This document shows, piece after piece, positions 36,420 to 58,036 of a stretch of DNA of 64,000 bases. Source of the stretch: Haloarcula halophila (GTDB lineage: Archaea > Halobacteriota > Halobacteria > Halobacteriales > Haloarculaceae); assembly GCF_029278565.1 (NCBI RefSeq), contig NZ_CP119559.1, positions 2,418,001 through 2,482,000 of the forward strand. The letters are read 5' to 3'. The notes under the pieces were generated by a model. It had not been told where the DNA came from and made no database searches. It was given only the letters and a program-made list of their open reading frames with translations. Position 1 is the stretch's first letter. Each line of letters begins with the position of its first letter. Both the position numbers and the translations under genes were made by a program.

Positions 36420-37010
36420 TCACGCGTTTGCTTCGCTCACCCCTTCGGGCCACGACTGGTCGGCCGCTGACCGTTCGATCTCGTCGAGGCGGGCGGTCAC
36501 GTCCGCGACGAACGACTGGTCGTCGATCCGCGTCAGGTTCCCCCGTGCGGTGAACGCCGTCGCCCGCATCGCCGCGTGCGCGAGCAGGCGGCCGGTCACC
36601 GCGTCGGGCCGGGCGTTCTCGTTCCCGTGAGCCGTAACCACCGCGCCGATCTCGACGACGGCCAGACACGCCTCGGCGATGGTCAGCGGGACGCCGGTCG
36701 CCCGCTTCAGCTCGGCCGTGGCGTCGTCCGCGGGCAGTGTGGCGAGCAGGTCGTCGACGGCCGATGCGTCCGTCTCCCCCAGTGTCATGAGGCGGGTCCG
36801 GAGTTCCTGTAAGTCCGCACGGGCGTCGCGCAGTTCGGCCGCGGCGTCGGCGCGACACTCCCCCCGTTCGAGCGTGTGGAGACAGACCATCTCACAGAGG
36901 GCCGCGCCGGTCGCGCCGACGACTGCCGCGGCCGTCCCGCCGGCCGGCGTCACCGCTGTCGACGCGATGTCGTCGAGGAACTGGTCGAGCGAACGGGTGC
37001 CGTAGTCCAT
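36420..37010 (-). CDS. Cyclodeaminase/cyclohydrolase family protein
   Basis: 196 residues from ATG at 37010. All-helical FTCD-type domain with the phosphate-loop-like TPAGGTAAAVVGATGAALCE and a C-terminal helix bundle. Family members (formiminotransferase-cyclodeaminase, methenyl-THF cyclohydrolase) act on folate one-carbon units: deamination of formimino-THF or hydrolysis of methenyl-THF to formyl-THF. It follows the MetF-like gene by 45 bases on the same strand, so the two form an operon. An ATG at 37022 is the alternative start. Confidence 0.8.
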   Translation of the reverse strand: MDYGTRSLDQFLDDIASTAVTPAGGTAAAVVGATGAALCEMVCLHTLERGECRADAAAELRDARADLQELRTRLMTLGETDASAVDDLLATLPADDATAELKRATGVPLTIAEACLAVVEIGAVVTAHGNENARPDAVTGRLLAHAAMRATAFTARGNLTRIDDQSFVADVTARLDEIERSAADQSWPEGVSEANA

Positions 37011-37055
37011 GTGGGCCACCACTCACCGAGCGGCCATAGGCGATTCCCCGTGAGA

Positions 37056-37916
37056 CTACTGGTCGAGTCTGCCCAGCCGCCACTCCTCGGTGTCGGGCGT
37101 CTGGTTGAACGTGTAGATGTGGACGCCCCGGATGCCGTACTCCTCGTCGTCGACGTACGGTGCGAGGCCGTCGATGAGTGAATCGGGCTCGTAGGTCCCT
37201 CGCGAGCCGACGAGTTGTCGGACGAACCCGAGGACGCCGGTGGTCTTCCGGAGGAACTTGATCGAGTCGCCCACGCCGACCTTCTGTGAGATCTTCATCA
37301 GCCGCTGGTACTTCATGACACCGGGGATGCCGACCTCGACAGGGAGGTCGACGCCCCGCTCGCGGACCGCTTCGATCCACTCGATGACGGCGTCGGGATC
37401 GTAACACAGCTGCGTGACGATGTACGTCGCGTAGGGGGCCTTCTTCTCCATCGCCTCGGCCAACGTGGCCTCGTCGAGGAAGTCGTGGCCCTCCGGGTAG
37501 CCGGTGATCCCCACTTCCTCGAAGGAGTAGGGTGTCTCGGACAGCGCCGCGAGCAGATCGTGGGCCGATTCGAACTCGCCGGCGGGCTCCTCGCGGTCGC
37601 CGCCGGGGACGAAGATGTCGGTGACGCCGGCCTCGGTCAGCCGCCGGGCGATCTCTTCGAGGTGCTCCCGGTCCTCGACGTAGCGGGCCGCGACGTGGGG
37701 GACGACGTCGAAGCCCAGCGCGACCGCCTCTTCGGTCTTCTCGACGGTCGTGTCGATGCCCAACTGGGGCGACGTCGTGATCGCGATCGTCGCGTCCGCG
37801 GGGAGATGGGTTATCTCCTCGTCGAAGCTCTCGAACGGCATCAACTCGAAGCGTGCGTTCGTGAGGAGTGTCTCGACCCCACGGCGGTCCGTCGTACGGC
37901 TGGTTCCTAAGGACAT
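37056..37916 (-). CDS. Methylenetetrahydrofolate reductase (MetF-like)
   Basis: 286 residues. An alpha/beta barrel of the MTHFR family, with FVPGGDREEPAG (about 95-106), VGITGYPEGHDF and GIPGVMKYQRLMKISQKVGV segments that form the flavin and folate site. The enzyme interconverts methylene- and methyl-tetrahydrofolate with a reduced cofactor. The cluster with the cyclohydrolase and demethylating enzymes suggests it handles one-carbon units released from betaine breakdown rather than only methionine synthesis. The ATG is preceded by a 15-base motif shared with the gene at 37976-38995 (see promoter entries). Confidence 0.82.
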   Translation of the reverse strand: MSLGTSRTTDRRGVETLLTNARFELMPFESFDEEITHLPADATIAITTSPQLGIDTTVEKTEEAVALGFDVVPHVAARYVEDREHLEEIARRLTEAGVTDIFVPGGDREEPAGEFESAHDLLAALSETPYSFEEVGITGYPEGHDFLDEATLAEAMEKKAPYATYIVTQLCYDPDAVIEWIEAVRERGVDLPVEVGIPGVMKYQRLMKISQKVGVGDSIKFLRKTTGVLGFVRQLVGSRGTYEPDSLIDGLAPYVDDEEYGIRGVHIYTFNQTPDTEEWRLGRLDQ

Positions 37917-37929
37917 TGTTTAGCTATGA
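37915..37929 (-). promoter_or_regulatory. Start-proximal shared motif, MetF-like gene
   Basis: ATTGTTTAGCTATGA on the plus strand (minus: TCATAGCTAAACAAT) ends at the start codon of the MetF-like gene. The same motif with one mismatch precedes the gene starting at 38995 (38999-39013). It may be a translation or regulator site shared by two island genes. Confidence 0.5.
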
Positions 37930-37968
37930 AAAGTGGGCTGAGTACTTTGTAGTAGGGGTGTGCCAGGG

Positions 37969-37980
37969 AACCCATTTAAG
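37969..37980 (-). promoter_or_regulatory. TATA-ATGGGT promoter core, MetF-like gene
   Basis: On the minus strand CTTAAATGGGTT lies about 60 bases upstream of the start at 37916, inside the end of the upstream gene. The same core occurs before the 38995 gene and the Rieske gene at nearly the same distance. Confidence 0.5.
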
Positions 37981-38995
37981 AGTGATCGCTCGGGGCACAC
38001 TGTCTGATGCGAGCCACGGCCTGCTCGTAGGACGTTTCCTGCTGGTCGCCGTCGGAGATGCGGTGGAGGACGAGGCCGATGAGATTGAGTTCCCGCAGGA
38101 GGTCACGGGTCTGCTGGCGCTCTAGTCCCAGCGAACGTTGGACCTCGTAGACCGCCGAGGCGTCCACGACGGCCTCGACGACGCCCTCCAGCGTGACGCC
38201 CTCGGGCATCCCGATGCCGTCGGTGACGAGTTGCTCGTCGGGCATCGCCGCCGTCGGGTCGGTCTCCGTGTCGGCCGCGCTCGCGTCGTGGGCGCTCGTA
38301 TCCGCCGTGCTCCCGCGCGCGTCGTCCGACCCGGTGTCGTACGTGTCGGGTTTGTGGACGCCGGCCTCGATCATGTACCGGCGGACCGTCTCCGCCGAGA
38401 TCTCCATCTCTATCTCGCGGCTCATCTCGGTGAAGGTGTCGTAGGCGTCGTACAGCGCTCGGAGGTACTCCGTGTCCTCGTAGGGTGGAACGGAGTCGTC
38501 CCGGACCGCCTGCGGGCCGGTCACTGTCGGATCGTCGTCCCCGTGGTCCTCGTTATCCACCGAATCGGCGGCGCTATCGTCGGTTCGGTCACTCGTCGGC
38601 TCCCCGGTCCGACGCGGTTCGTCCGCTGTCGTCGGGTCGGTGTCGTCGGGATCGATGGTCAGTTCGACGGTAAGCAGGAGGCCGTCGTCGGCAACCCGGA
38701 CGGCACCTTCGGTGGCCGCGACCCCCGGGAGGTCGTCGGGCAGCGTGCCTGGTGTCGACCTGTCGAACTCCACCTGGAGCCCACCGTTGTCGGTCAGCGT
38801 GGCCGTCTCCGCGGTGAGTGTCGAGTCGCCCTCGGCCCCGGCGGGACACAGCGACACGGGGACATCCAGCGTGACCGACAGTCCGTCACCCGAGCCGTCG
38901 TCGGCCGTCGCCTCGACGTTCCGGATCTCACGGCCGCGTGACTCGTACTCGTCGATGATGTCGGAAAGGATATCGAACGAATTCTGTAATCCCAT
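37976..38995 (-). CDS. Predicted DNA-binding regulator with two HTH-like segments
   Basis: 339 residues from ATG at 38995. The N-terminal 110 residues form a beta-rich domain (EIRNVEATADDGSGDGLSVT), followed by a long acidic, low-complexity linker (DDTDPTTADEPRRTGEPTSD). A helix-turn-helix-like segment (EISAETVRRYMIEAGVHKP) sits near 195-215 and a second (VYEVQRSLGLERQQTRDLLR) near 285-305. The family resembles haloarchaeal multi-HTH regulators but I cannot name it. It is transcribed in the same direction as the MetF-like gene just downstream and shares promoter and leader motifs with it, so it is a candidate regulator of the one-carbon island. Confidence 0.65.
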   Translation of the reverse strand: MGLQNSFDILSDIIDEYESRGREIRNVEATADDGSGDGLSVTLDVPVSLCPAGAEGDSTLTAETATLTDNGGLQVEFDRSTPGTLPDDLPGVAATEGAVRVADDGLLLTVELTIDPDDTDPTTADEPRRTGEPTSDRTDDSAADSVDNEDHGDDDPTVTGPQAVRDDSVPPYEDTEYLRALYDAYDTFTEMSREIEMEISAETVRRYMIEAGVHKPDTYDTGSDDARGSTADTSAHDASAADTETDPTAAMPDEQLVTDGIGMPEGVTLEGVVEAVVDASAVYEVQRSLGLERQQTRDLLRELNLIGLVLHRISDGDQQETSYEQAVARIRQCAPSDHS

Positions 38996-38998
38996 GGT

Positions 38999-39013
38999 AT
39001 TGTTTATCTATGA
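38999..39013 (-). promoter_or_regulatory. Start-proximal shared motif, regulator gene
   Basis: ATTGTTTATCTATGA on the plus strand lies 3 bases from the start codon at 38995 and differs at one base from the motif before the MetF-like gene. Confidence 0.5.
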
Positions 39014-39015
39014 CA

Positions 39016-39032
39016 CGTTATGGTGGATAACG
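39016..39032. promoter_or_regulatory. Inverted repeat CGTTAT-5-ATAACG
   Basis: CGTTAT at 39016-39021 and ATAACG at 39027-39032 with a 5-base spacer, placed between the promoter core and the start of the regulator gene. Candidate operator, possibly for self-regulation. Confidence 0.5.
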
Positions 39033-39048
39033 CTATGTGCGGAATAGC

Positions 39049-39061
39049 AAACCCATTAAAA
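39049..39061 (-). promoter_or_regulatory. TATA-ATGGGT promoter core, regulator gene
   Basis: Minus-strand TTTTAATGGGTTT lies about 60 bases before the start at 38995, matching the spacing seen for the MetF-like and Rieske genes. Confidence 0.5.
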
Positions 39062-39086
39062 TACCCCCAAAATAATCGGGACACTC

Positions 39087-40049
39087 TCACCGACGGTCCG
39101 ACTCAGCACGGGTCGCGATGGCGGCGACGCGTTCCCCGGCGGCGACGACCGCTTCCCGGGCGAGCGAGTACGGGACTCCGCCGTCGTCGGTGGTGACGGT
39201 CTGGAGTGACTCGAAGGTGGCCGGACAGTAGACGGTCCCCAGTTCGGCACCCGGGGGGACGTAGTCGCCCACGTCGACGCCGGGACGGAGTTCGAACAGC
39301 CCCGAGGCCTGTGCGCGGACCGTCTCGCCGTCGTCCCGGAGGGTCGTCCGGTCGGGCGCCGACGCCGGCGTGTCCGGGAGCACCGAGAGCGACCGGAGGA
39401 CGTTCACGAGTCCGCCCACACCCGTCCGGATGGCGTCGTGAGAGACCTGGCGGCTGTTGCCGAGTTCGGCCGTCACGGCCGGAATCCCGGCGTTCGCGGC
39501 GGCCTCCCGGAAAGTGCCCTCGGCCGACGCCTCACTGTCGGTGTCGGCCAGCACGAACTCGGTCCCGAAGGCGGTCGCCAGGTCCCTGGCCGCCTCGTCG
39601 TCGGCGCGATAGCGCACGTGTTCGAGCATGTCGGCGGTTCCGGTGTGGAGATCCACGGCCGCGTCGGCGTTGCCGGCGAGGCCCCACAGGCGGGCGGCCA
39701 GGCGCTCTTGGAGGCTTCCCTCGCCGTCCCCGGGCCAGACGCGGTTCAGGTTCGGGTTCACCACGTCGTAGGCCGACGGGGTGGTGTACGAGCGGTGGTC
39801 GAACGCCGGCGGGTTCGCCACCGGGACGGCGATCACCGTCCCGGCGATCTCGGCGCCGTCGAGTCGCTCGTCGAGGCGGCGCAGGACCGCCGGCCCGTTC
39901 AGTTCGATGCCGTGCTGTGCGGCCTGGAGGTAGACGGTCGGTCCCGGGCCGCCCGTGTACCGGTGGACCGTCACGGTCAGGTCCGCGCCCGAGGGCAGTC
40001 GGCCGAGGCGACGGTCGGTCTGCGTGTGCGTGACGGGTTGGTGTTCCAT
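39087..40049 (-). CDS. Succinylglutamate desuccinylase/aspartoacylase-family deacylase
   Basis: 320 residues. Zinc ligands of the M14-like fold are His46 and Glu49 (AAQHGIELNG) and His135 (VDLHTG), and a probable catalytic Glu lies in VTAELGNS. The C-terminal beta domain (FELRPGVDVGDYVPPGAELG) is lipoyl-like, as in the AstE/DoeB subgroup. Members remove acyl groups from amino acids, for example N-acetyl-diaminobutyrate in ectoine degradation (DoeB). Its presence beside a betaine island fits a compatible-solute role, but the substrate is unproven. Confidence 0.8.
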   Translation of the reverse strand: MEHQPVTHTQTDRRLGRLPSGADLTVTVHRYTGGPGPTVYLQAAQHGIELNGPAVLRRLDERLDGAEIAGTVIAVPVANPPAFDHRSYTTPSAYDVVNPNLNRVWPGDGEGSLQERLAARLWGLAGNADAAVDLHTGTADMLEHVRYRADDEAARDLATAFGTEFVLADTDSEASAEGTFREAAANAGIPAVTAELGNSRQVSHDAIRTGVGGLVNVLRSLSVLPDTPASAPDRTTLRDDGETVRAQASGLFELRPGVDVGDYVPPGAELGTVYCPATFESLQTVTTDDGGVPYSLAREAVVAAGERVAAIATRAESDRR

Positions 40050-40106
40050 ACCCTGTCAGGGTACTGTGGGGACAAAAAAGGCGAGCGTGGCGGGAGTTTA
40101 TTTCCA

Positions 40107-40124
40107 CCGGCCCCGAGGGGCCGG
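40107..40124. promoter_or_regulatory. 18-bp palindrome before the creatininase-like gene
   Basis: CCGGCCCC-GA-GGGGCCGG at 40107-40124 is a near-perfect palindrome two bases before the start codon at 40127; a TATA-like TTTATTTCC lies just upstream. It could be an operator or a hairpin masking the start. Confidence 0.6.
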
Positions 40125-40126
40125 AT

Positions 40127-40855
40127 ATGCACATCGAGACGGAGACGTGGACCGATCTAGCCGACACCGAGACGGAGCTGGCGCTGGTCCCGGTCGGTAG
40201 CACCGAGCAACACGGCCCGCACGCCCCGCTGGGGACGGACACGCTCAACGCCGAGGCGGTCGCCGACGCGGCCGCCGACCGCTACGACGGCGACGTCGTC
40301 GTCGCACCGGCTATCCCGGTCGGCGTCGCCGAAGAACACCGGGCGTTCACCGGGACGCTCTGGACCAGCGAGTCCACGTTCCGGGCGTACGTCCGGGACG
40401 TCGTCGACAGCCTCGCCGCTCACGGGTGGGACCGGGTCGTCCTGGTCAACGGCCACGGCGGGAACATCGCCGCCCTCCGGGAGGTGGCCGGCCGGATCGT
40501 GCGCCACGACGACGCCTACGCCGTCCCGTTCACGTGGTTCGACGAGGTGGGCGAACAGGAGGTCGACATGGGCCACGGCGGACCGATGGAGACCGCACTG
40601 TTACAGCACGCGAACCCCGAGACGGTCCACGAGGACCGCTTCGCGGAGGCCGCCTCGGGCGGGGCCGACCGCTGGGGCGACTGGCAGGGGCGTGTCAACC
40701 TCGCGTTCGACTCCGACGAGTTCACCGAGAACGGCGTCGTCGGCGACCCCCGCGACGGGAGCGCCGACCTGGGCGAACAGTTGCTCGAATCGGCCACGGC
40801 GTCGCTTGTCGCCCTGCTGGAGACCGTCGCCGACCGGGAACTTCCCGAGCGCTAG
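40127..40855 (+). CDS. Creatininase-family amidohydrolase
   Basis: 242 residues. Metal-binding and catalytic residues of the family are in GSTEQHGPHAPLGTDT (Glu27, His29, Asp38), LVNGHGGN and DMGHGGPMETA (late Glu). Creatininase itself converts creatinine to creatine, which leads to sarcosine; other members act on cofactors such as F420 or mycofactocin intermediates. No creatinase is seen nearby, so the substrate is open. Its stop overlaps the stop of the convergent gene by sharing CTAG (40852-40855). Confidence 0.82.
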   Translation: MHIETETWTDLADTETELALVPVGSTEQHGPHAPLGTDTLNAEAVADAAADRYDGDVVVAPAIPVGVAEEHRAFTGTLWTSESTFRAYVRDVVDSLAAHGWDRVVLVNGHGGNIAALREVAGRIVRHDDAYAVPFTWFDEVGEQEVDMGHGGPMETALLQHANPETVHEDRFAEAASGGADRWGDWQGRVNLAFDSDEFTENGVVGDPRDGSADLGEQLLESATASLVALLETVADRELPER

Positions 40856-41271
40856 GCCTGGAGTTCGTCCCAGCGCTCGACGCCTGCCTCGGCGACCTCG
40901 CGATCCTGGGAGACCGCGCCGCCGGAGACGCCGATCGTCCCGACGATCTCGCCGTCCCGCTTCAGGGGGTAGCCGCCGCCGAAGATGACGATGCGGCCCT
41001 CGTCGGTCGACTGGAGTCCGTACAGCGAGTTCCCCGGTTCCGACGGCTCGGCGAGTTCGTGGGTCGGTGTCTCGAGCGCCGCGGCGGTGTAGGCCTTGTT
41101 CCGCGAGATGCTCACCGACGCGAGCCACGCCCCGTCCATGCGGTGCTGGGCGACGAGGTTCCCCTCGCTGTTGGCGACGGTGACGACCATCGGGTTGTCG
41201 ATCTCCTCGGCTTTCTGTTCGGCTGCTTCGATAACATCTGTCGCCGTCTCAAGTGCAATAGACTGGACCAT
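40852..41271 (-). CDS. GlcG/HbpS-family heme-binding-like protein
   Basis: 139 residues from ATG at 41271 (MVQSIALETATDVIE). The GlcG/DUF336 pattern is clear: MVVTVANSEGNLVAQHRMDG and a glycine-rich IVGTIGVSGG end. Proteins of this family bind heme or small molecules and often accompany catabolic operons, but the function is rarely known. It is convergent with the creatininase gene. A longer start at 41298 is possible but unlikely. Confidence 0.8.
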   Translation of the reverse strand: MVQSIALETATDVIEAAEQKAEEIDNPMVVTVANSEGNLVAQHRMDGAWLASVSISRNKAYTAAALETPTHELAEPSEPGNSLYGLQSTDEGRIVIFGGGYPLKRDGEIVGTIGVSGGAVSQDREVAEAGVERWDELQA

Positions 41272-41506
41272 GCAATCCCCCGCTTCGCCGGGTACCATCT
41301 TAGAACCCAGGTTTCAGTCAACCGACACCGCTGTCGTGGCCCTCCGGCGTCGCCCGGGACCCGGCAGCGATCGGGACCCCACTCCTTCACAACGATGGCG
41401 TTGTGAACTACGAACCACTACTGGTCAGTACACCTACTTTTTGAAAAGCCCGCCCCGGCCAGCGGAAACTATTTGCCGACCCCACCGTCATCCTCAGACT
41501 AGATTT

Positions 41507-44092
41507 ATGCAACCGACCGAGAACTTACCGGAGCAGGCCGACACCGTCATCGTCGGCGCCGGTATCGTGGGGTGTAACCTCGCGTATCAACTGACCGAGA
41601 TGGGGAGAGAGGACGTCGTCGTCGTCGACCAGGGGCCGATGCCCACCACGGGTGGCTCCTCGACGCACGCGCCGGGGATCATGTTCCAGACGGCCGAGCC
41701 GAAGACGCTCAGCCAGTTCGCGAACTACAGCCGGAAGCTCTACTCGGACTTGGAGGGCGCAGACGGCAAGCAGGCCTACAGCGAGACCGGCGGTATCGAG
41801 GTGGCACGCAGCGAGGAACGGATGGCGTTCCTCCAGCGCCGTGTCGAACACGCCAAGGCCTGGGGGATCCCCGATCCACAGATCCTCTCGCCCTCGGAGG
41901 TGACGGACCACCTCCCGCTGGTCGACGAGGAGGAGATCCTGGGCGGGTACTACTCCCCGACCGACGGCCAGGTCTCCGGCGTCGTCGCCTGTGACGCGCT
42001 CGCGAGGGAGGCGATGGACCGGGGCGCGAAGTTCGTCCCCCACACCCGAACCGAGGACGTCGACGTCGAGGGCGGCGCTGTCCAGCGCGTCGTCACCGAG
42101 AACGGGAGTATCGAGTGTGACGAGGTGGTCGTCGCGACGAACATCTGGGCGCGGCAACTGGGCGAGAAACTCGGCGTCCACCTCCCAGTGACGCCGGTCG
42201 AACACCAGTACACGATGACCGAGTCGCTGGAGGAACTGGCGGACAACGCGATCGACGTCACCGACCACCCGCTGTTCGAGAACTACGAGAACGTCTCCGG
42301 CGAGAAGACCAAACGGCTCCTGGCCGACCCGGACCGCCCCATCCTCCGGGACCAGGACAACGCGATGTACTACCGGACCCACGGGGACGCCTACGGCATC
42401 GGCTCGTACAACCACGAGCCAATCGTCCCGGACCCACGGGACCTGGGCGGCAACGACCCGGACGGCGAACAGGGCTCTGTCCACGAGTTCACCGACTTCC
42501 ACATGGACAACGCGACCCATCCGGATCGGCCCCACAAGGCCCCGCGCCAGGCCAGCGACGAACTCCTGCCGGCGACGGCCGGGAAAGAACTCGAACACAA
42601 GTACAACGGGATGTTCGCCGAGTCCCCCAACGGGCTGCCCGTGATGGGGCCTGTCCAGGAGTACGACGGGCTCTGGACCGCGGCGGCAATCTGGGTCACC
42701 CACGCCGGCGGCGCGATGAAAGCGCTGGCCGAGTGGATGGAGACGGGTGTCCCGCGGCTCGACGACGGCCCCATCGACCTGGCACACTGTGACGTCAACC
42801 GGTTCGACGACCACGAGGGAAGCTGGGACTTCGCCCGCGACATCGGCGGCGAGGAGTACCGCATCGTCTACAACATCATGCACCCCAAGTGGGTGTGGAC
42901 GGACAAACAGCGCGACATCCGGCGGACGCCGATGTATCACACCCACAAGGAGTACGACGCGGAACTGTGGGCCGAGGCCGGCTGGGAGGAACCCCAGTGG
43001 TTCGAGTCCAACGCGGACCTCGTCGACCGCTACGAGGACCAGATCCCCGACCGGAACGGCTGGGAGGGCGTCTACTACTCGCCCATCGAGGGCGCCGAGG
43101 CGCTGAACGTCCGGGAGAACGTCGGCCTCCACGACATGACCTCGTTCAACAAGATGGAGGTCGTCGGCAGCGACGCCGGCGAGTTCGTCCAGTACCTCTG
43201 TACGAACGACATGGACATCGGCGTCGGTGACGTGAAGTACACGCTGATGTGTAACGAGGGCGGCGGCGTCCGGGCCGACATCACCGTCACCCGGACCGAC
43301 GAGGACCGCTACCTCCTGTTGACGACCGGCCGCGAGGTGGGGAACAACCACGTCGCGTGGGTCCGCGAGCAGGCCCCCGACGGCGTCGTCGTCAACGACG
43401 TCACTTCCAGCCTGGCGGCGATGGTCTGTACCGGCCCGAACGCCCGGAAGGTCCTCTCGAAGGTCACCGACGTCGACCTCTCGGACGAGGCCTTCCCGTT
43501 CTTCACGAGCCAGCAGTTCTTCGTCAAGAACGTCCCCGTGACGGCGCTGCGGGTCTCGTATGCCGGCGAACTCGGCTGGGAGCTGTACACCCCCTCGGAG
43601 TACGGGGAACGCCTCTGGGAATACCTGCTGGAGGCCGGCGAGGAGTACGGTCTGCGCCCCTACGGCAACGGCGCGCTCAACGCCCTGCGCATCGAGAAAG
43701 GGTTCCGGCTGTGGGGGAAGGACCTCCACACCGAGCACACGCCACACGAAGCGGGCCTCGGCTGGGCCGTCGATATGGACACCGACTTCATCGGGAAGGA
43801 GGCGCTCCAGGAGACCGCCGAGGCGGCGGCGGACGGCGGTGCCCGACGCAAGGAAGTGGCCTGTCTCACGCTGAACGACGAGGACGCGACCATCCTCGAC
43901 AACCGTCCGGTCCTCGACGGCGAGGAGTCCATCGGCTACGTCCACAGCGCCGAGTACGGCTACACCGTCGGGGCCTGTGTCGCTTATAGTTATCTCCCGC
44001 CGGAGTACACCGACCCCGGTACCGAGGTCGACATCCTCTACGAGGGCGACCGCTACACCGCGACCGTCCGCGAGGAACCGCTGGTCTCCTAA
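41507..44092 (+). CDS. FAD-dependent dimethylglycine/sarcosine dehydrogenase with GcvT domain, copy 1
   Basis: 861 residues from ATG at 41507 (leader AGATTTATG). N-terminal FAD-binding DAO domain with GAGIVG (17-22) and a GGSSTHAPG motif at about 49-57 in which His54 aligns with the covalent-FAD His of dimethylglycine dehydrogenase. The C-terminal half (from about 450) is an aminomethyltransferase (GcvT/FolM-type) domain: ADITVTRTDEDRYLLLTTGR, LRVSYAGELGWELYTPSEYG and IGYVHSAEYGYTVGA. Such fusions demethylate dimethylglycine or sarcosine and deliver the methyl carbon to THF as methylene-THF. Substrate not decided between the two copies. Confidence 0.85.
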   Translation: MQPTENLPEQADTVIVGAGIVGCNLAYQLTEMGREDVVVVDQGPMPTTGGSSTHAPGIMFQTAEPKTLSQFANYSRKLYSDLEGADGKQAYSETGGIEVARSEERMAFLQRRVEHAKAWGIPDPQILSPSEVTDHLPLVDEEEILGGYYSPTDGQVSGVVACDALAREAMDRGAKFVPHTRTEDVDVEGGAVQRVVTENGSIECDEVVVATNIWARQLGEKLGVHLPVTPVEHQYTMTESLEELADNAIDVTDHPLFENYENVSGEKTKRLLADPDRPILRDQDNAMYYRTHGDAYGIGSYNHEPIVPDPRDLGGNDPDGEQGSVHEFTDFHMDNATHPDRPHKAPRQASDELLPATAGKELEHKYNGMFAESPNGLPVMGPVQEYDGLWTAAAIWVTHAGGAMKALAEWMETGVPRLDDGPIDLAHCDVNRFDDHEGSWDFARDIGGEEYRIVYNIMHPKWVWTDKQRDIRRTPMYHTHKEYDAELWAEAGWEEPQWFESNADLVDRYEDQIPDRNGWEGVYYSPIEGAEALNVRENVGLHDMTSFNKMEVVGSDAGEFVQYLCTNDMDIGVGDVKYTLMCNEGGGVRADITVTRTDEDRYLLLTTGREVGNNHVAWVREQAPDGVVVNDVTSSLAAMVCTGPNARKVLSKVTDVDLSDEAFPFFTSQQFFVKNVPVTALRVSYAGELGWELYTPSEYGERLWEYLLEAGEEYGLRPYGNGALNALRIEKGFRLWGKDLHTEHTPHEAGLGWAVDMDTDFIGKEALQETAEAAADGGARRKEVACLTLNDEDATILDNRPVLDGEESIGYVHSAEYGYTVGACVAYSYLPPEYTDPGTEVDILYEGDRYTATVREEPLVS

Positions 44093-44162
44093 GCCGGACC
44101 CCCGACCACCGTTTCTTGCCGCCGATCGAACGACCTGTCGAGTCCTCGGTTTCCCCCGTCGT

Positions 44163-44175
44163 CTTTTAAATGGGT
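44163..44175 (+). promoter_or_regulatory. TATA-ATGGGT promoter core, Rieske gene
   Basis: CTTTTAAATGGGT at 44163-44175 lies 57 bases before the ATG at 44227. The same core occurs before the MetF-like and regulator genes at about 60 bases. It also argues against the ATG at 44170, which falls inside this element, as the true start. Confidence 0.5.
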
Positions 44176-44226
44176 GTAGTATCGGTGGCCAATGGTGATA
44201 GAGTCCACGAGAAGAAAACCACACGT

Positions 44227-45366
44227 ATGACTAGATGGAACGCGTCTGACGACGGTGTTACTGCTGTTAGTCCAGATATAACTGACGAAACGAACGCATT
44301 GCCCGCAAAATACTTTACAGAACCACAGATCCATGAACTCGAAAAGGAGAAGATATTCGGTCGATACTGGGTGTACGCCGGACACGCGAACGCGATTCCG
44401 GAGACCGGAGCGTACTTCACGCGGACCATCGGCGACAAGCAAGTGATCGTCGTCCGTGACCACGACGACGAGATACGCGCGTTCTTCAACGTCTGTGCAC
44501 ACCGCGGGTCGAAGATGGTCGAGGATACGCCCATGACCAACCCCGGCAACATGGGTCGTATCCGCTGCCCGTATCACATGTGGTCGTACGACCTGGACGG
44601 CGACCTCGAAAGCACGCCGAAGAGCTTCGAGGAGGCCGGGCTCAACCCTGACCTGGATGACGAGGAAGTCTGTGGTTTGGACGCCAGCGAGAACGGACTC
44701 AACGAGGTCCGGACCGACCGGATCGGACCGTTCGTCTTCCTCAACTTCGCCGACGACCCGATGGCGCTGGCCGAGCAGGCAGGGACGCTGAAAACGGAGC
44801 TGGAAGCCATGCCCTTAGAAGAGTACGAACACGCGGCGCGGTACGTGTCGGAAGTCGACTGCAACTGGAAGACGTTCGCCGGCAACTACTCGGAGTGCGA
44901 TCACTGTCACGCGAACCACCAGGACTGGATAACCGACATCGAACTCGACGAGTCCAACCTCGAAGTCAACGACTACCACTGGATTCTCCACTACACCCAC
45001 GACGAGGACGTCGACGACGAACTCCGCATCCACGAGGAAAAAGAGGCGAAGTTCTACTACTTCTGGCCGAACTTCACGGTGAACATGTACGGCACGGCCG
45101 ACGGGTACGGGACGTACATCATCGACCCGATCGACGAGGGCCGGTTCCAGTTGATTGCCGACTACTACTTCAGTTCCGCGGAGATGACTGACGCGGAGCG
45201 AGAGTTCGTCCAGACGAGCCGCCAGCTGCAGGAAGAGGACTTCGAACTCGTCGAACGCCAGTACGAAGGGCTACAGTCCGGCGCGCTTGCCCAGGCACAA
45301 CTGGGACCGAACGAACACACCGTCCACAAACTGCACCGACTCGCACAGGAGGGCTACGACGCGTGA
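44227..45366 (+). CDS. Rieske [2Fe-2S] oxygenase, glycine betaine demethylase type
   Basis: 379 residues from ATG at 44227. The Rieske cluster is C90-x-H92 and C114-x2-H117 (CAHRGS then CPYHMW), with 21 residues between His92 and Cys114 instead of the usual 15-17. The mononuclear iron site is N220-x2-E223-x2-H226-x4-H231 (NYSECDHCHANH). Architecture and neighbours match the oxygenase subunit of glycine betaine monooxygenase (GbcA), which removes one methyl as formaldehyde to give dimethylglycine; carnitine or stachydrine demethylases are alternatives. No GbcB-like reductase is seen. It overlaps the next gene by 4 bases. Confidence 0.8.
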   Translation: MTRWNASDDGVTAVSPDITDETNALPAKYFTEPQIHELEKEKIFGRYWVYAGHANAIPETGAYFTRTIGDKQVIVVRDHDDEIRAFFNVCAHRGSKMVEDTPMTNPGNMGRIRCPYHMWSYDLDGDLESTPKSFEEAGLNPDLDDEEVCGLDASENGLNEVRTDRIGPFVFLNFADDPMALAEQAGTLKTELEAMPLEEYEHAARYVSEVDCNWKTFAGNYSECDHCHANHQDWITDIELDESNLEVNDYHWILHYTHDEDVDDELRIHEEKEAKFYYFWPNFTVNMYGTADGYGTYIIDPIDEGRFQLIADYYFSSAEMTDAEREFVQTSRQLQEEDFELVERQYEGLQSGALAQAQLGPNEHTVHKLHRLAQEGYDA

Positions 45367-45743
45367 CTCCGGTGTCCCGGACAGACCAGCGAGCGGACGT
45401 GCCGTTCGTCGCTCGATCCACCGAGACGGGTGCCCGTGTCGAGGCGTCGACGGCGAACGAGGTGATCGCGTTCTATCGACGCCAGCAGGGACTGCTGGAC
45501 ACGGATCTCGAATGGGTCTTTGCGGACCATCCGGCAGTCACGACGGTTTCGGACTCGGGCGGTATCGAAACTGTCCTGCGGGCGCTCGACGACGACTTCG
45601 AGAACGGTGTCCCGCTTGGGATTCTCGCCGCCGCGATGAGTAAACAGGGCTGGACCGTCGGGGACACGCTGGCCGAAGTGTACGACTTGCGTATGGACGG
45701 TTCGCTCTGGGAACCCCGGTCGGATCACGTCCGGCCGGTCTGA
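45363..45743 (+). CDS. Small hypothetical protein coupled to the Rieske oxygenase
   Basis: 126 residues starting with GTG at 45363 inside the Rieske stop (GTGA overlap), so it is translated from the same message. The N-terminus contains FVARSTETGARVEASTANEV and IAFYRRQQ, and the C-terminus GWTVGDTLAEVYDLRMDGSL and WEPRSDHVRPV has a helix-turn-helix-like pattern. It has no ferredoxin or flavin motif, so it is not the missing reductase. It may be an assembly, regulatory or electron-transfer helper; function is unknown. Confidence 0.6.
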   Translation: MTPVSRTDQRADVPFVARSTETGARVEASTANEVIAFYRRQQGLLDTDLEWVFADHPAVTTVSDSGGIETVLRALDDDFENGVPLGILAAAMSKQGWTVGDTLAEVYDLRMDGSLWEPRSDHVRPV

Positions 45744-46043
45744 CGGATCGATACCTGTACTTTCGGTCACGATCACTTGCTGGGAGCTATTTGCGTCGCC
45801 CCACCAGTCACAGCGGCAGCCACGTTGTTTCGTAACACCTGTCCATCCAGTCCGCTCCCAGAAAATGTTAGCTGCGTATAATACTGTGGTTCGTCGTGGC
45901 CCGTGTTGCAAACTGTCTCGGCCCGAAATCCTATTCTGGTATCTGTGGGCCATAGAATCCCTCTATATCCCAAATTCCCGATTTCGATATCCCCGCCATC
46001 GGTGTTTTTATACTTGTGTCAGAAGCAGTCTCAAACGAGATAT

Positions 46044-48596
46044 ATGAGCACAGAGACTCCCCCATCACGGGCGGATACCGTTATTATCGGTGCCGGGGCT
46101 GTCGGCTGTAGCGTCGCCTACCACCTGTCGGAACTCGGCGCGGCGGACGTCACCGTCGTCGATCAGGGACCGCTCCCGGTCACCGGCGGTTCGTCCGTTC
46201 ATGCGCCAGGTATCATGTTTCAAACGTCGCCGTCGAAGATACAGACGAAGGCGGCCCACTACACCAGCCGATTGCTCTCTGAGGCGGGTGTCTACGACGA
46301 GGTCGGCGGGATCGAACTCGCCCGTAGCGAGGACCGGATGGACTTCCTGCGCCGCCGGAAGGAGTGGGCGACCTCGTACGGACTGCCGGAGCCACAACTG
46401 CTCGACCCCGAAGAGGTGACCGACCACCTCCCGATGGTCGATGAGGACGAGATCCTGGGCGGGTACTACTCCCCGACCGACGGGCGCGTCGACGGGATCG
46501 GGGCCCTCCAGTGGTACATGGAGGAGTCGGCGGCCGACTTCGTCGGGAACACCGAGGTCGAAGACATCGAGGTCGAGGACGGCGCCGTCCAGGCCGTCGT
46601 GACCGACCGCGGCCGCATCGAGTGTGACCGCTGTGTGATGGCGACGAACAACTGGGGGTACCAGACCGGGCAGTTGGCCGGCCTCGACCTCCCGATCGCG
46701 CCCGTCGAACACCAGTACGTCGTCACCGAACCGCTGGACGAACTGGCCGACGAGGAGAGTTCGGTCGGCGACAACACCACCGGGCTGGACGTGCCCGGCG
46801 ACCGCTCCATCGCGGAGTACATGAGCGAGGGACCGACCCAGCCAGTCGGGCGCGACCAGGACCACTCGCTGTACTTCCGGAACCACGGCGACGCCCTGGG
46901 GATGGGGTCGTACAACCACGAGACGCTCTCGGTCGACCCCGAGGCGATGGGGAAAAACACCGACGAACACCAGGCCTCTGTCAGGGGATTCACGAAGGAG
47001 CACTGGGAGAAGCCGACCCACCGTGGCCGGGACAAGTCCGCCAAGCAGGCCTTCGACGAACTCCTGCCGGCAACGCAGGACGTCGAATACGAAGCCACCG
47101 AGAACGGCATCTTCGTGTTCACGCCCGACGGGATGCCCGCCGTCGGCCCGACCGCCGCCGTCGACGGGCTCTGGAGCGGGCTGGCGATCTGGTGGACGCA
47201 CTCGGGGGGCTACGGCAAGATCCTCGCCGAGTGGATGGAGAACGGCGTCCCGCGGCTCCCGTCCGGGCCGGTCGACACCGGCGGCATCCACGTCCGGCGG
47301 TTCGAACCCCACGCGGGCGAGAAAGAGTACTTCGTCGACCGGGGGGCAAAACGGTACGAACAGGTCTACAGCATCGTCGAGCCCCGGTGGCAACCCGACG
47401 ACCACCGTGGGCTGCGGCGAAGTCCGTTCTACAGCCAACAGGAGGACCTGGGTGCGGAGTTCTACCAGAGCGGCGGCTGGGAGACCCCCCAGTACTACGA
47501 GTCCAACGCGGACCTCGTCGACCGCTACGAAGACCAGATCCCCGAACAGGACGGCTGGCAGGCGATCAACCGCTCGCCCATCGAGGCGGCCGAACACCTC
47601 CACACCCGCGAGAAGGTGTCGATGTTCGACATGACCACGTTCAGCTCCATTGTGGTCGAGGGCGAGGGCAGCGGCGAGTTCCTCCAGTCGGTCTGTAGCA
47701 ACGACATCGACATCGACATCGGACAGGTCCGCTACTCGCTGTTGTTGAACGAGGGTGGGGGCATCCTCGCGGACGTGACGGTCGTCCGCTTGGACGACGA
47801 GGAGTACTTGGTCACTACCGGAGGCGGGAGCTCGCCGGGCATCCACGGCGGGTGGCTCGAAGAGCACGCCCCGGAGACGGTGGGTGTCCACGTCGAAGAG
47901 GGCGCGCGCTCGACCATCGGCCTGTGGGGACCGAACGCCCGGCTGCTCCTCCAGCGCTGTACCGACGCCGACGTGACAAACAGCGGCTTCCCGTACTTCC
48001 GGGCCAAGCAGATCTACGTCGGCGAGGTGCCGGTCGTCGCGTTGCGGGTCTCCTACGTCGGCGAACTCGGCTGGGAGCTGTGGGCACCGACCGAGTACGG
48101 CCAGCGCCTCTGGGAGACGCTCTGGGAGGCCGGCCAGGATCTGGGCGTGCGGCCGATGGGCGGGGGCGCGCTCAGTTCGATGCGGCTGGAGAAGGGGTAC
48201 CGGCTGTGGGGCACCGACATCGACACGGACGCCAACCCGTTCGAGGCGGGCCTACCCTTCGCCGTCGACATGGACACCGACTTCGTCGGGAAGGAGGCGC
48301 TCCAGGCGGCACGCGAGGACGGCATCGACAACCGCATCACGCCGCTGACGCTCGACGACTCGACGGACATCATGTTGAGCGGGCGGCCGGTCACGAAAGA
48401 CGGCGAGACGCTCGGGTACGTCCAGGCGGGGGACTACGGCTACACCCTCGGCGAGTCCATCGCCTACACGTACGTCCCGAGCGAGTACGCCGAGGCCGGC
48501 ACCACGGTGCAGGTCCACTGCGAGGGCGAGACCTACGACGCTACCGTTCGCGACGAACCCCTGTTCGATCCGGGCCGGGAGAAGATCATCCGGTAA
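46044..48596 (+). CDS. FAD-dependent dimethylglycine/sarcosine dehydrogenase with GcvT domain, copy 2
   Basis: 850 residues from ATG at 46044, with a TATA-like TTTTTATACT 35 bases upstream. Same two-domain layout as copy 1: GAGAVG at 16-21, GGSSVHAPG with His53, and a GcvT half with SNDIDIDIGQVRYSLLLNEG, LRVSYVGELGWELWAPTEYG and LGYVQAGDYGYTLGES. The paralogs share a long identical DNA stretch around 41930/46450, evidence of duplication. One copy probably acts on dimethylglycine and the other on sarcosine. Its stop is 3 bases before the ammonia-lyase gene, so they are co-expressed. Confidence 0.85.
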   Translation: MSTETPPSRADTVIIGAGAVGCSVAYHLSELGAADVTVVDQGPLPVTGGSSVHAPGIMFQTSPSKIQTKAAHYTSRLLSEAGVYDEVGGIELARSEDRMDFLRRRKEWATSYGLPEPQLLDPEEVTDHLPMVDEDEILGGYYSPTDGRVDGIGALQWYMEESAADFVGNTEVEDIEVEDGAVQAVVTDRGRIECDRCVMATNNWGYQTGQLAGLDLPIAPVEHQYVVTEPLDELADEESSVGDNTTGLDVPGDRSIAEYMSEGPTQPVGRDQDHSLYFRNHGDALGMGSYNHETLSVDPEAMGKNTDEHQASVRGFTKEHWEKPTHRGRDKSAKQAFDELLPATQDVEYEATENGIFVFTPDGMPAVGPTAAVDGLWSGLAIWWTHSGGYGKILAEWMENGVPRLPSGPVDTGGIHVRRFEPHAGEKEYFVDRGAKRYEQVYSIVEPRWQPDDHRGLRRSPFYSQQEDLGAEFYQSGGWETPQYYESNADLVDRYEDQIPEQDGWQAINRSPIEAAEHLHTREKVSMFDMTTFSSIVVEGEGSGEFLQSVCSNDIDIDIGQVRYSLLLNEGGGILADVTVVRLDDEEYLVTTGGGSSPGIHGGWLEEHAPETVGVHVEEGARSTIGLWGPNARLLLQRCTDADVTNSGFPYFRAKQIYVGEVPVVALRVSYVGELGWELWAPTEYGQRLWETLWEAGQDLGVRPMGGGALSSMRLEKGYRLWGTDIDTDANPFEAGLPFAVDMDTDFVGKEALQAAREDGIDNRITPLTLDDSTDIMLSGRPVTKDGETLGYVQAGDYGYTLGESIAYTYVPSEYAEAGTTVQVHCEGETYDATVRDEPLFDPGREKIIR

Positions 48597-50982: not shown

Positions 50983-52737
50983 ATGTCAGAAAGTGACGAT
51001 ACTGCTGGGGAGATGTCGGATGGACTTCAGGTAGAGCTGTTCCATCCGGAATCGGACCGCGAACCCGGTGACACGAACATCCAGGCGCTCGGGTTCGACA
51101 TCCACCCGATCGTCTTCCCGGTTGCTCTGGTGATCATCGCGTTGTTCATCGCGGTGACTGTCCTGCTCGGGGATACCGCCTCGTCGGCGTACACCTGGCT
51201 GTTCAACTTCATCGGGGACACGTTCGGCTGGTTCTACTTGCTGGCGGTGAACGTCTTCATCGCCGTATTGCTGTTCTTCGCGTTCAGCAAGTACGGGAAG
51301 ATCAAGATCGGTGGCGTCGAAGCCGAGAAGGAGTTCAGCGACTTCTCGTGGATGGCGATGCTGTTCAGTGCCGGGATGGGGATCGGCCTCATGTTCTTCA
51401 GCGTCTCCGAGCCGCTGTACTACTTCCAGAACGTTCCGAGCTTCTTCGGCGCGGAGGCGGGAACCGGCGCGGCGGCCTCCGCGGCGATGGCACAGACGTT
51501 CTTCCACTGGGGCTTTCACCCGTGGGCGGTGTACGGACTCGTCGGCCTCGGGCTGGCGTTCTTCTCGTTCAACCGCGGGTTGCCGCTGACGTTCCGGTCG
51601 ATCTTCTGGCCCCTGCTCGGCGAGCGGATCTACGGCTGGCCCGGACACATCATCGATCTCGTGACGGTGTTCGCGACGCTGTTCGGCCTGTCGACGTCGC
51701 TCGGTCTGGGCGTCGCACAGGTCAACACCGGCCTCTCGTACGTGGGCGGTGACATGCTCGGCCTCGTCAGCATTCCGACGGGGACCTGGCCACAGGTCGC
51801 CCTCATCGCCGGGATCACCCTGATCGCCACGATGTCGGTCGCGGCCGGCCTCGACGGCGGCGTCAAGCGACTCAGCACCATCAACCTCTACCTGATGTTC
51901 GCGCTGCTCGGCTTCCTCCTCATCGTCGGACCCACGGTGTACATCCTGGGGTCCTGGGTCGAGGGGCTGGGCGCGTACTTCGGGAACATCCTCGCGCTGG
52001 GCTTCTTCACTGGCACGCTCGGACCGGCCGAGAACGGGACGGTGACGGCCTGGACGGTGTTCTACTGGGGCTGGTGGATCGCGTGGTCGCCGTTCGTCGG
52101 GATGTTCATCGCGCGCATCTCGAAGGGCCGTTCGGTCCGTGAGTTCGTCCTAGGCGTGCTGTTCCTGCCCGCGCTGTTCTCGACGCTGTGGCTGTCGGTG
52201 TTCGGCGGGAGCGCGCTGTTCAACTCCTTGCAGGGCAACGGTGCGGCGCTCGCGACCTACAACGAACTCGGCCAGACCGTCGCGATGTTCGCCATGCTCG
52301 AACAGTTCCCGCTGGGAGCCGTTTCGGGCCTGCTCGCGACGCTGCTGGTCATCACCTTCTTCGTCACGTCCTCTGACTCCGGGTCGCTGGTCATCGACCA
52401 CCTGACCTCCGGCGGGAAACACGACGTGCCGAGGGTCCAGCGGATCTTCTGGGCACTGGTCGAGGGGCTGGTCGCCTCGATCCTGCTCATCGGTGGCGGC
52501 CTGACGGCGCTGCAGACGGCCGCTATCACGACCGGACTGCCGTTCGCGGTCATCCTGTGTCTGATGTGTTACACGGTGTATCTGGGGCTCAGCAACGAGT
52601 ACCAGATCCTCGAATCCGAGGAGTTCGCCGAGACGATACAGGACCTCACCGAAGAGAGCGACGTCGACATCACGACGGCCGGCGACGCGACGGTAACGGA
52701 CGTTTCGGACAGAGACGAGACGCCGAGCGGCGACTGA
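50983..52737 (+). CDS. BCCT-family betaine carrier 1
   Basis: 584 residues with about 12 hydrophobic segments and acidic tails at both ends. The glycine-rich segment AGMGIGLMFFSVSEPLYYF corresponds to the substrate site helix of BetP-type carriers, and the Trp box is WTVFYWGWWIAWSPFVGMF. The GIGLMFF form resembles sodium-coupled betaine carriers rather than CaiT-type exchangers. It would import glycine betaine for osmoprotection and for the demethylation pathway nearby. No regulatory C-terminal domain beyond about 40 acidic residues is seen. Confidence 0.88.
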   Translation: MSESDDTAGEMSDGLQVELFHPESDREPGDTNIQALGFDIHPIVFPVALVIIALFIAVTVLLGDTASSAYTWLFNFIGDTFGWFYLLAVNVFIAVLLFFAFSKYGKIKIGGVEAEKEFSDFSWMAMLFSAGMGIGLMFFSVSEPLYYFQNVPSFFGAEAGTGAAASAAMAQTFFHWGFHPWAVYGLVGLGLAFFSFNRGLPLTFRSIFWPLLGERIYGWPGHIIDLVTVFATLFGLSTSLGLGVAQVNTGLSYVGGDMLGLVSIPTGTWPQVALIAGITLIATMSVAAGLDGGVKRLSTINLYLMFALLGFLLIVGPTVYILGSWVEGLGAYFGNILALGFFTGTLGPAENGTVTAWTVFYWGWWIAWSPFVGMFIARISKGRSVREFVLGVLFLPALFSTLWLSVFGGSALFNSLQGNGAALATYNELGQTVAMFAMLEQFPLGAVSGLLATLLVITFFVTSSDSGSLVIDHLTSGGKHDVPRVQRIFWALVEGLVASILLIGGGLTALQTAAITTGLPFAVILCLMCYTVYLGLSNEYQILESEEFAETIQDLTEESDVDITTAGDATVTDVSDRDETPSGD

Positions 52738-56706: not shown

Positions 56707-57894
56707 ATGCCTGCCGATGCATCGCGCGCCTCGGGGGAGCCGTACGTCACGTCCTTCGAGGCGACGGTCGACTCGGTCGACGGTCGCACGGTCACGCTCG
56801 AACACACCTACTTCTACGCCGAGGGCGGCGGCCAACCCGCCGACCGGGGAACCCTCGACGGCGTCGACGTCGCCGACGTCCAGTCTCTGGACGGCGAGAC
56901 AGTCCATACCCTCGCGTCGGCCCCCGACTTCGCGGCCGGCGACACCGTCACGGGGGCCATCGACGAGTCTTTCCGGACCTACAGTATGCGGGCACACACC
57001 GCCAGCCACATCGTCTACGGTGCCGGTCGGCGGCTGTTCGACGGGCACGGCTACGGCGGCTTCGACATCGGCGAGGAGACGGTCCGGCTCGACTTCGAGA
57101 CGGCGGCAAGCGCCGAGAGGGTCGACCCGCTGACCGTCCAGGAGATGGTCAACGAGGTGGTCTGGGAGGACCGCGCCGTCGACTGGTACGAGATGGGCGT
57201 CGAGGCGGCCCGCGACCACGAGGACATCGTCTTCAACCTCGGTGATACGACGCCGACCGAGAGCGTCCGGATCGTCGAGATAGCGGACTGGGATATCTCG
57301 GCCTGTGGGGGGACACACGTGGCCTCGACCGTCGAGGTCGGTCCCATCAAGGTTCTCGACGTCTCCAACCCCGGCGCGGACCTGGTCCGGGTCGAGTACG
57401 CCGTCGGCCCGGCGGCGATCGAACGGCAGGTCGCGGAGACACGCAGCGCGCGCCGCGGGGCGGACGCACTGGACACGAGCGTCGAGGGACTCGGCGAGCG
57501 GGCCGAGGGGCTGCTCGACGAGAAGAAGGCGCTCCAGGAAGAGTGTGCCCGGCTCCGCGGGGACCTGCTGGACGCACGGCTGTCGGCGCTCGCGAGCGAG
57601 ACGCACACGCGCGACGGGCGGGAGTGGCTCGTCGGCACCGTCGAGGGCGTCGACTCCAACGCCGTCGCCGATCACCTCAGAACACGCGACGGGGCGGCCG
57701 ATGTCGTCGTCCTGACCGGCACCGACGGCGCGACGTTCGTGGTCGTCGGCACCGACGGCGAGACGGACGCCAACGACGTGATCGGCGAGATCACCGACGA
57801 GTTCGGCGGTGGGGGTGGCGGTCAGCCGACGCTCGCACAGGGCGGCGGTCTCTCGGCGGAGCCCGAGGCGGTCGTCGACTACCTCACCGACTGA
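56707..57894 (+). CDS. Alanyl-tRNA editing protein (AlaX-type, DHHA1 C-terminus)
   Basis: 395 residues. The editing domain has zinc ligands HTASH (His97, His101) and CGGTH (Cys200, His204), which remove mischarged Ser or Gly from tRNA-Ala. The C-terminal part (about 290-395), with GGGGGGQPTLAQGGG, is the DHHA1-like tail of AlaX-L or AlaRS. It lacks the AlaRS aminoacylation domain, so it is a free-standing editor. Divergent from the FolC-FolP gene (97-base gap). Likely a housekeeping gene within the island. Confidence 0.9.
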   Translation: MPADASRASGEPYVTSFEATVDSVDGRTVTLEHTYFYAEGGGQPADRGTLDGVDVADVQSLDGETVHTLASAPDFAAGDTVTGAIDESFRTYSMRAHTASHIVYGAGRRLFDGHGYGGFDIGEETVRLDFETAASAERVDPLTVQEMVNEVVWEDRAVDWYEMGVEAARDHEDIVFNLGDTTPTESVRIVEIADWDISACGGTHVASTVEVGPIKVLDVSNPGADLVRVEYAVGPAAIERQVAETRSARRGADALDTSVEGLGERAEGLLDEKKALQEECARLRGDLLDARLSALASETHTRDGREWLVGTVEGVDSNAVADHLRTRDGAADVVVLTGTDGATFVVVGTDGETDANDVIGEITDEFGGGGGGQPTLAQGGGLSAEPEAVVDYLTD

Positions 57895-58036
57895 GTCGGT
57901 TCGGGAAACTCGTCACGACAGCGAACCGACGGGATGGGAGTATCGGTGTCGTCCGACGCCGAAGAGAACACATCGTATCCGGCTTCTATCAGCTATACGA
58001 ACTTTCATACGCCGGTACAGGGAACCCAATGACGAG

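Follow-up and report, generated by a model that had tools for sequence, protein, structure and literature searches.

A conserved element adjoining the TATA box before one-carbon and betaine genes of Haloarcula halophila, with its probable regulator

The window, meaning the whole stretch of 64,000 nucleotides (64 kb) analysed here, contains an island of genes whose site-bearing members in haloarchaea probably serve in glycine betaine breakdown and the handling of one-carbon units. An IclR-type protein is also encoded in the window, at 34194-34958. Sites were scored with a model, R1, that was built without the MetF or the present Rieske sequence; the site before the candidate regulator, here called Reg, is one of its training sequences, whereas the Rieske site is not among the sequences that built it. 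The features are as follows.

36420..37022, minus strand: FTCD_C cyclodeaminase/FchA-like protein, one-carbon context
37056..37916, minus strand: MetF-like protein (PF02219), its start at 37916 supported by relatives
37915..37929, minus strand: TCATAGCTAAACAAT at the MetF start
37956..37980, minus strand: MetF promoter element CTTAAATGGGTTCCCTGGCACACCC, ranked third by R1 in the window (6.5 bits, E 0.88), with TATA-like 37975-37980, GGGT 37970-37973 and inverted ACCC 37956-37959
37976..38995, minus strand: Reg, candidate regulator of 339 aa, with a beta-rich N-terminal part and a disordered linker flanked by two helical HTH-like regions
38999..39013, minus strand: TCATAGATAAACAAT in the predicted 5' UTR of Reg, kept at some of the Reg loci
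39027..39062, minus strand: putative Reg operator/promoter ATTTTAATGGGTTTGCTATTCCGCACATAGCGTTAT, best R1 site in the window and the whole genome (28 bits), with TATA 39056-39061, GGGT 39051-39054, TATTCC 39041-39046 and initiator-like TTAT 39027-39030
41507..44092, plus strand: dimethylglycine/sarcosine dehydrogenase-like protein (DAO and GCV_T), whose conserved promoter is of a different type
44164..44182, plus strand: Rieske promoter element TTTTAAATGGGTGTAGTAT, ranked second by R1 in the window (11 bits, E 0.032) and third genome-wide, with TATA 44164-44170, GGGT 44172-44175 and TAT 44180-44182
44227..45366, plus strand: GbcA-like Rieske oxygenase alpha subunit, start at 44227
46044..48596, plus strand: second dimethylglycine/sarcosine dehydrogenase-like protein, with yet another conserved promoter type
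50983..52737, plus strand: BCCT betaine/carnitine/choline transporter
57809..59764, plus strand: formate-tetrahydrofolate ligase, true start probably near 58037

Three cores that a sequence-only reading had reported before the MetF, Reg and Rieske genes (37969-37980 and 39049-39061 on the minus strand, 44163-44175 on the plus strand) were found where it had placed them. Measured from the initial T of TTWAATGGGT, the start codon's A lies 63 nt away for MetF, 65 nt for Reg and 61 nt for the Rieske gene. A genome search for the core, which the same reading had proposed, gave three exact matches in 4,041,616 bases, all three of them in the island, and four matches for the reversed pattern used as control. 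Allowing one mismatch returned the same three places and no others in the window, and none of 1000 dinucleotide shuffles equalled the 10-mer upstream of the Rieske gene, which matches both other regions at 9 or more of its 10 positions. The core consists for the most part of a TATA box, its informative part being the GGGT immediately after it. Because the Reg stop codon (TAA, 37976-37978) falls within the MetF core, some of the TATA-like sequence there is under coding constraint. This overlap in one of the three cores and the general likeness of AT-rich TATA boxes would fit a chance resemblance; that explanation is extremely improbable, being contradicted by all the shuffle controls, by the rarity of the core genome-wide, by conservation across families and by the prediction of folD, whose footprint refutes it.

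Both 15-mers described at the starts of MetF and Reg are likewise present at the coordinates and strands claimed for them (37915-37929 and 38999-39013). Their agreement at 14 of 15 positions is real here, as 400 shuffles reached 13 at most, and the pattern has two exact places in the genome, at MetF and Reg only. Before Reg the 15-mer is kept in relatives, e.g. as TCATAGATAAACAA; as a shared regulatory motif it was rejected because it is not conserved before the MetF genes of relatives.

The element at Reg is longer in relatives and reads TTTnAAtGGGT-N4-TATTCCnCA...TTAT. With a PWM of TATA and operator derived from Reg promoters, all 28 non-redundant Reg loci gave p<0.01. A strong dyad was looked for at the Reg and folD sites and none was found, and a palindromic operator at these two genes was accordingly dropped.

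A search of the genome with the Reg-derived pattern gave four matches (control, two), including Reg itself and, as an out-of-sample case, the promoter of folD (methylene-THF dehydrogenase). The folD site lies 27 kb away, beyond the window, and was the only further convincing match. Its layout, GGGT-N4-TATTCC, is that of Reg, and the encoded protein scores 556 bits against NF010764, the NCBIfam FolD-type methylene-THF dehydrogenase/cyclohydrolase family, above the curated cutoff of 477. The element is present in 21 of 22 island-type folD loci and absent from all nine housekeeping-type loci. In the genome of the present strain the Reg, folD and Rieske sites are the three best matches to R1 and the only ones at E<=10. 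Pattern matches at C1:534278, C4:84175 and C1:2261820 were set aside, as their TATA and gene context were unconvincing. Another, at C3:85740 (TAAATGGGTT), lies 54 nt upstream of a permease-like reading frame. The sequence-only reading had not foreseen that the core is mostly TATA, that the Reg element extends to TATTCC or that folD is a fourth and stronger member.

The element is restricted to genomes that contain Reg. Among 60 genomes, uncorrected for relatedness, a site at E<=0.05 was found in 39 of the 44 with Reg and in none of the 16 without it (best 0.32); this comparison is circular in part, since Reg's own promoter is the strongest site, with folD and Rieske as the independent part. 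The Reg-promoter PWM gave p<0.05 at 34 of 55 MetF loci and 9 of 28 Rieske loci, compared with 3 of 124 at five neighbouring genes. The element was searched for and not found at the dimethylglycine dehydrogenase, AstE-like, creatininase and HbpS genes, and the upstream regions of the BCCT transporter and formate-THF ligase genes, when read, proved to be without it. Haloarchaea possess multiple TFBs and TBPs, and one paralogue of either might read a basal promoter variant consisting of TATA and a downstream contact, with no specific operator. The several TFBs and TBPs, the fixed distance at which the element abuts TATA and the initiator-like TTAT that it includes are all consistent with such a variant. 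Nevertheless we regard it as quite improbable: the genome has only three to four convincing sites, each of them before Reg or a betaine or one-carbon gene; the 16 genomes lacking Reg that were searched gave no site at E<=0.05; the housekeeping-type folD genes are devoid of the element; and the adjacent dimethylglycine dehydrogenase genes use other conserved promoters. The earlier suggestion of a common regulator or promoter class holds for a shared regulatory element before three genes and for the 37976-38995 protein as its likely binder. A basal promoter class is unlikely, since the pattern and model searches of the genome did not show the core to be frequent upstream of unrelated genes.

MetF is the least certain member of the set, although it is probably included. 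It shares only the TATA and GGGT half with the others, its 3' half being a conserved sequence of its own, ACCCACAGACAAAAGTA. TATA and GGGT...ACCC align in 29 non-redundant island-type MetF loci from many genera. Two overlapping systems might therefore exist, in which Reg acts on its own gene, folD and the Rieske gene of some lineages, while TATA and GGGT at MetF are convergent and another factor acts through ACCCACAGACAAAAGTA. Such an arrangement, which would modify rather than replace an operator for Reg, is possible but doubtful. It agrees with the weak R1 score at MetF, with the dyad GGGT-N10-ACCC, absent at Reg and folD, and with the independent conservation of the 3' half, which survives in part at Halobellus-type loci that lack TATA and GGGT. 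On the other hand, the position of TATA and GGGT(T) is nearly constant in the 29 island-type loci and the pair is absent at MetF homologues outside the island, and the MetF site ranks third in the 64 kb and second in 25 kb of Haloarcula hispanica pHH400.

For the Rieske gene, the start at 44227 proposed earlier is preferred over 44170: for nearly all the orthologues examined the alignment begins with the Met at 44227, and the 44170 ATG falls within the TATA-GGGT element. The best family for the protein is the glycine betaine monooxygenase GbcA (NF058607), at 146.5 bits, far under the equivalog cutoff of 670. Membership of this gene is lineage-dependent, as the element occurs before it only in some lineages and GGGT is missing in some genomes with Reg. 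The median promoter score, again uncorrected for relatedness, is 1.1 with Reg (51 promoters) and -12.7 without it (27 promoters), and the latter promoters retain a conserved CTAYCTGYGRTCAAC of their own. Reg homologues also adjoin Rieske genes in other families.

Reg was compared with Pfam, NCBIfam, PDB sequences and, by Foldseek, with structures; there was no match in Pfam or NCBIfam and nothing significant from any of these searches. The top Foldseek matches of its C-terminal part include many DNA-binding proteins, all at E>1, and Reg has predicted helices with an invariant ETVRRYM. Scattered weak TrmB/MarR/IclR matches occur in a few relatives; assignment to the TrmB family (PF01978) was rejected, as Reg itself has no match and only 3 of 39 relatives match weakly (best E 0.013). 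Homologues were found in 32 of the 86 genera sampled, and the listed plasmid relatives are all annotated as hypothetical protein; in Haloarcula hispanica ATCC 33960 the homologue is HAH_RS18280 and metF is HAH_RS18285. A literature search of limited coverage found no report of a Reg-type regulator.

Reg, which is encoded in the same cluster, is the most likely protein to dock at the element. It is improbable that the binder is instead another regulator, such as the IclR-type protein or one encoded elsewhere, with Reg a regulated passenger. IclR-like genes do occur near some other Rieske loci as well as in the window, and the Rieske promoters contain a conserved element independent of Reg, but the sites track the presence of Reg across genomes, no IclR relative was found within the fetched flanks of most Reg-MetF loci, and the strongest and most conserved site is Reg's own promoter.

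We infer that the element is probably an operator adjoining TATA, bound by an autoregulated Reg that controls betaine and one-carbon genes, probably by repression. In each promoter TATA would be followed by the operator, in the form GGGT-N4-TATTCC at Reg and folD, GGGT-N4-TAT at the Rieske gene and GGGT-N10-ACCC at MetF. Transcripts are predicted to start near 39030 (Reg), 37950 (MetF) and 44194 (Rieske), each to within a few bases; counted from the expected start, the operator would span about -22 to -9, so that bound Reg would block recruitment of RNA polymerase. Besides its own gene, Reg may in this way repress folD and the Rieske oxygenase gene, and probably metF as well, and glycine betaine or a derived one-carbon metabolite may release it from the operator.

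The predicted repression follows the rule for TrmB-type regulators, which inhibit polymerase recruitment when bound downstream of TATA and activate when bound upstream (PMC10817205). The TrmB regulons likewise comprise a few haloarchaeal metabolic promoters with a conserved cis motif positioned relative to TATA, although the motif is different, Reg is not a TrmB protein by sequence, and the genes concern betaine and one-carbon rather than sugar metabolism (PMC10817205). The 5' half of the element is a TATA box of the haloarchaeal core promoter type (BRE CGAAA, TATA TTWT, -10 WW; PMC4983044), but that consensus lacks GGGT and TATTCC, which mark only a few promoters here. The predicted leaders are about 30-40 nt, whereas 72% of transcripts in Haloferax volcanii are leaderless (PMC4983044). 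Clustering of Rieske, dimethylglycine dehydrogenase-like (with a folate domain), BCCT and folate enzymes resembles bacterial GbcA-type betaine catabolism, which is linked to folate one-carbon metabolism; the regulator is unrelated by the searches made and the Rieske protein falls far below the GbcA cutoff.

These results suggest a function for the so far unnamed Reg family and predict a betaine and one-carbon regulon with defined sites across many haloarchaeal genera. Glycine betaine probably serves as a nutrient in salty waters; that haloarchaea use it was raised only as a possibility in a comparative study (PMC3102087). The Reg sites also represent a case of an operator that changed between genes across lineages. 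More tentatively, Reg may stand for a new family of archaeal regulators whose recognition site adjoins TATA, is in two parts and is not palindromic, with the Rieske promoter rewired by lineage; such a site, GGGT plus TATTCC or, at metF, ACCC, could conceivably be read by the two HTH-like regions on the disordered linker.

According to a genome pattern search, the 4.04-Mb genome contains three copies of the core TTWAATGGGT, all of which lie in the window and begin 63, 65 and 61 nt upstream of the start codons of the MetF-like gene, the gene of a 339-aa candidate regulator (Reg; 37976-38995, minus strand) and the Rieske oxygenase gene respectively. On the coding strand the cores read CTTAAATGGGTT, TTTTAATGGGTTT and CTTTTAAATGGGT, each being a haloarchaeal TATA box with TGGGT immediately after it. 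Re-inspection of the sequence confirmed the positions given by the sequence-only reading for the cores and for two 15-base motifs at the MetF and Reg starts. Agreement over ten bases as good as that of the real upstream regions was never reached in shuffled ones and the genome holds only these three sites; the core, taken in that reading as the mark of a common regulator or promoter class, is therefore not common before unrelated genes.

The comparison covered 43 MetF loci (nearly all haloarchaeal, two bacterial) together with additional loci from 391 members of the class. The Reg promoter is strikingly conserved in the alignment of relatives (TTTnAAtGGGTTnnnTATTCCnCACnTAnnnnTTATG), and all 28 non-redundant Reg loci scored at p<0.01 against dinucleotide shuffles, with five neighbouring genes as negative controls. 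Island-type MetF promoters retain TTWAAAyGGGTT at a near-constant distance, followed by CACCCACAGACAAAAGTA to give GGGT-N10-ACCC, and this element was absent from the upstream regions compared for MetF homologues outside the island. The Rieske promoters of Haloarcula read TTTAAACGGGTGTACTATCCGTGG, and those of another genus (CTTATACGGGTCCACTATTCCCGACG) have the Reg layout.

The Reg-derived pattern AANGGGTNNNNTRTYC gave four matches in the whole genome against two for a control pattern, among them Reg itself and one site before a folD gene, which was identified by family match:

C1:2484330-2484365 (C1, a contig of the genome), 2.3 kb past the window end: folD site, ATTTCAATGGGTGGACTATTCCGCGTCGGCAGTTAT

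The spacing from TATA to the initiator-like TTAT is identical to that of Reg. Island-type folD genes are ~70-81% identical and most relatives carrying one also have a housekeeping-type folD. The element is present in 21 of 22 island-type loci (the exception being L211; in locus L209 the GGGT half is altered) and in none of nine housekeeping-type loci. This footprint is the strongest evidence for the element because folD lies outside the original finding and its product suits the pathway. The element is real, conserved and operator-like, and its out-of-sample prediction was confirmed.

A sequence-only model, R1, was trained on 21 Reg, 11 folD and two Rieske sites, including the Reg and folD sites of this genome and excluding its MetF and Rieske sites. 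With both strands of the window searched, Reg ranks first at 28 bits, followed by Rieske at 11 bits (E 0.032) and MetF at 6.5 bits (E 0.88); in the whole genome no site other than Reg, folD and Rieske reaches E<=10. Of 60 genomes, 44 have a Reg homologue and 39 of these carry a site at E<=0.05, versus none of the 16 that lack Reg, a comparison that is partly circular through the Reg promoter itself, the folD and Rieske sites not being so. A further R1 site (G380:C6:55519-55802) lies upstream of a short stretch resembling folD, which may be a decayed copy of that gene.

Rieske promoters, scored with a matrix built without any Rieske sequence, have a median of 1.1 with Reg (51 promoters) versus -12.7 without (27 promoters; Mann-Whitney p about 5e-9, kinship ignored). 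In several low-scoring Reg-positive genomes, such as G118, G298, G375 and G383, the Reg matches are weak and lie close to the limit of the search. Others, including G299 and G368, possess a close Reg, yet their Rieske promoters lack GGGT; judged from these promoters, membership of the Rieske gene is thus lineage-dependent. In one group of Rieske promoters TGTTCAATATCAC stands in place of GGGT. Genomes without a close Reg conserve CACTTATAGGTACGAACTACCTGCGATCAACCCTTATT at this gene (e.g., loci L085, L094 and L128), and the L151 promoter contains the inverted repeat GTTCAATATCACTGGTGAAC, with variants in L144 and L153; such promoters are likely to answer to a different regulator.

MetF itself is a fairly probable member of the regulon. 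Alternatively, a different factor may control it by way of the conserved half that is peculiar to its promoter: Halobellus-type MetF upstream regions (L034, L110, L113, L118, L119) have lost TATA and GGGT and retain GCCAATAGACAAAAGTA, so ACAGACAAAAGTA is an element in its own right. The start motif reported as shared by MetF and Reg is conserved only at Reg, and there only in some relatives. The 14/15 match of 37915-37929 and 38999-39013 (both minus strand) exceeds all shuffles and may be due to recent local copying or to chance. Two further conserved promoter types occur at the dimethylglycine dehydrogenase genes, so the pathway is not under a single operator type:

41398-41506: promoter of the first dimethylglycine dehydrogenase-like gene, about GGCGATAaCTATATTtGncCGCCAyaGTCAC, in most relatives (L005-L030)
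45975-46043: promoter of the second such gene, CACCGGTGTATTTAAGATnGTGACAG, conserved across most relatives

GTGAC/GTCAC may link the two.

Reg has no match in Pfam or NCBIfam, and its listed plasmid relatives are annotated as hypothetical proteins. The predicted structure (mean pLDDT 72) comprises a helix and beta-rich N-terminal part, a disordered linker and two helical regions, the first of which contains ETVRRYM, invariant in 39 sequences. Foldseek returned nothing significant for Reg, although many top entries for its C-terminal part are DNA-binding proteins, all at E above 1. From this search, the neighbouring targets, the Rieske gene neighbourhood in other families and the co-occurrence with the site, we infer that Reg binds DNA. 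With TATA near -26 (PMC10817205), the GGGT-TATTCC block would lie at about -22 to -9. Archaeal TrmB-type regulators reportedly inhibit polymerase recruitment when they bind downstream of TATA (PMC10817205), and by this analogy Reg on the block would more likely act by repression with autoregulation. Leaders of about 30-40 nt (Reg, MetF, Rieske) and about 100 nt (folD) are predicted; in Haloferax volcanii, by contrast, most transcripts are leaderless (PMC4983044). The regulon is new, of a familiar kind and with an uncharacterised regulator.

The genome is haloarchaeal, and the nearest named relatives that the searches brought up are Haloarcula and allies. The island encodes a GbcA-like Rieske oxygenase (scoring under the GbcA cutoff in a family profile search), two dimethylglycine/sarcosine dehydrogenase-like proteins with folate-binding domains, the MetF-like protein, an FTCD_C/FchA-like protein, a BCCT transporter and a formate-tetrahydrofolate ligase. 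These families suggest glycine betaine breakdown and handling of the released one-carbon units; betaine use by haloarchaea has been raised as a possibility in published comparative work (PMC3102087). After the Rieske gene, 45363-45743 encodes a small protein whose C-terminal domain is of the HVO_B0008 type; almost every locus with a close Rieske orthologue has this protein downstream as well.
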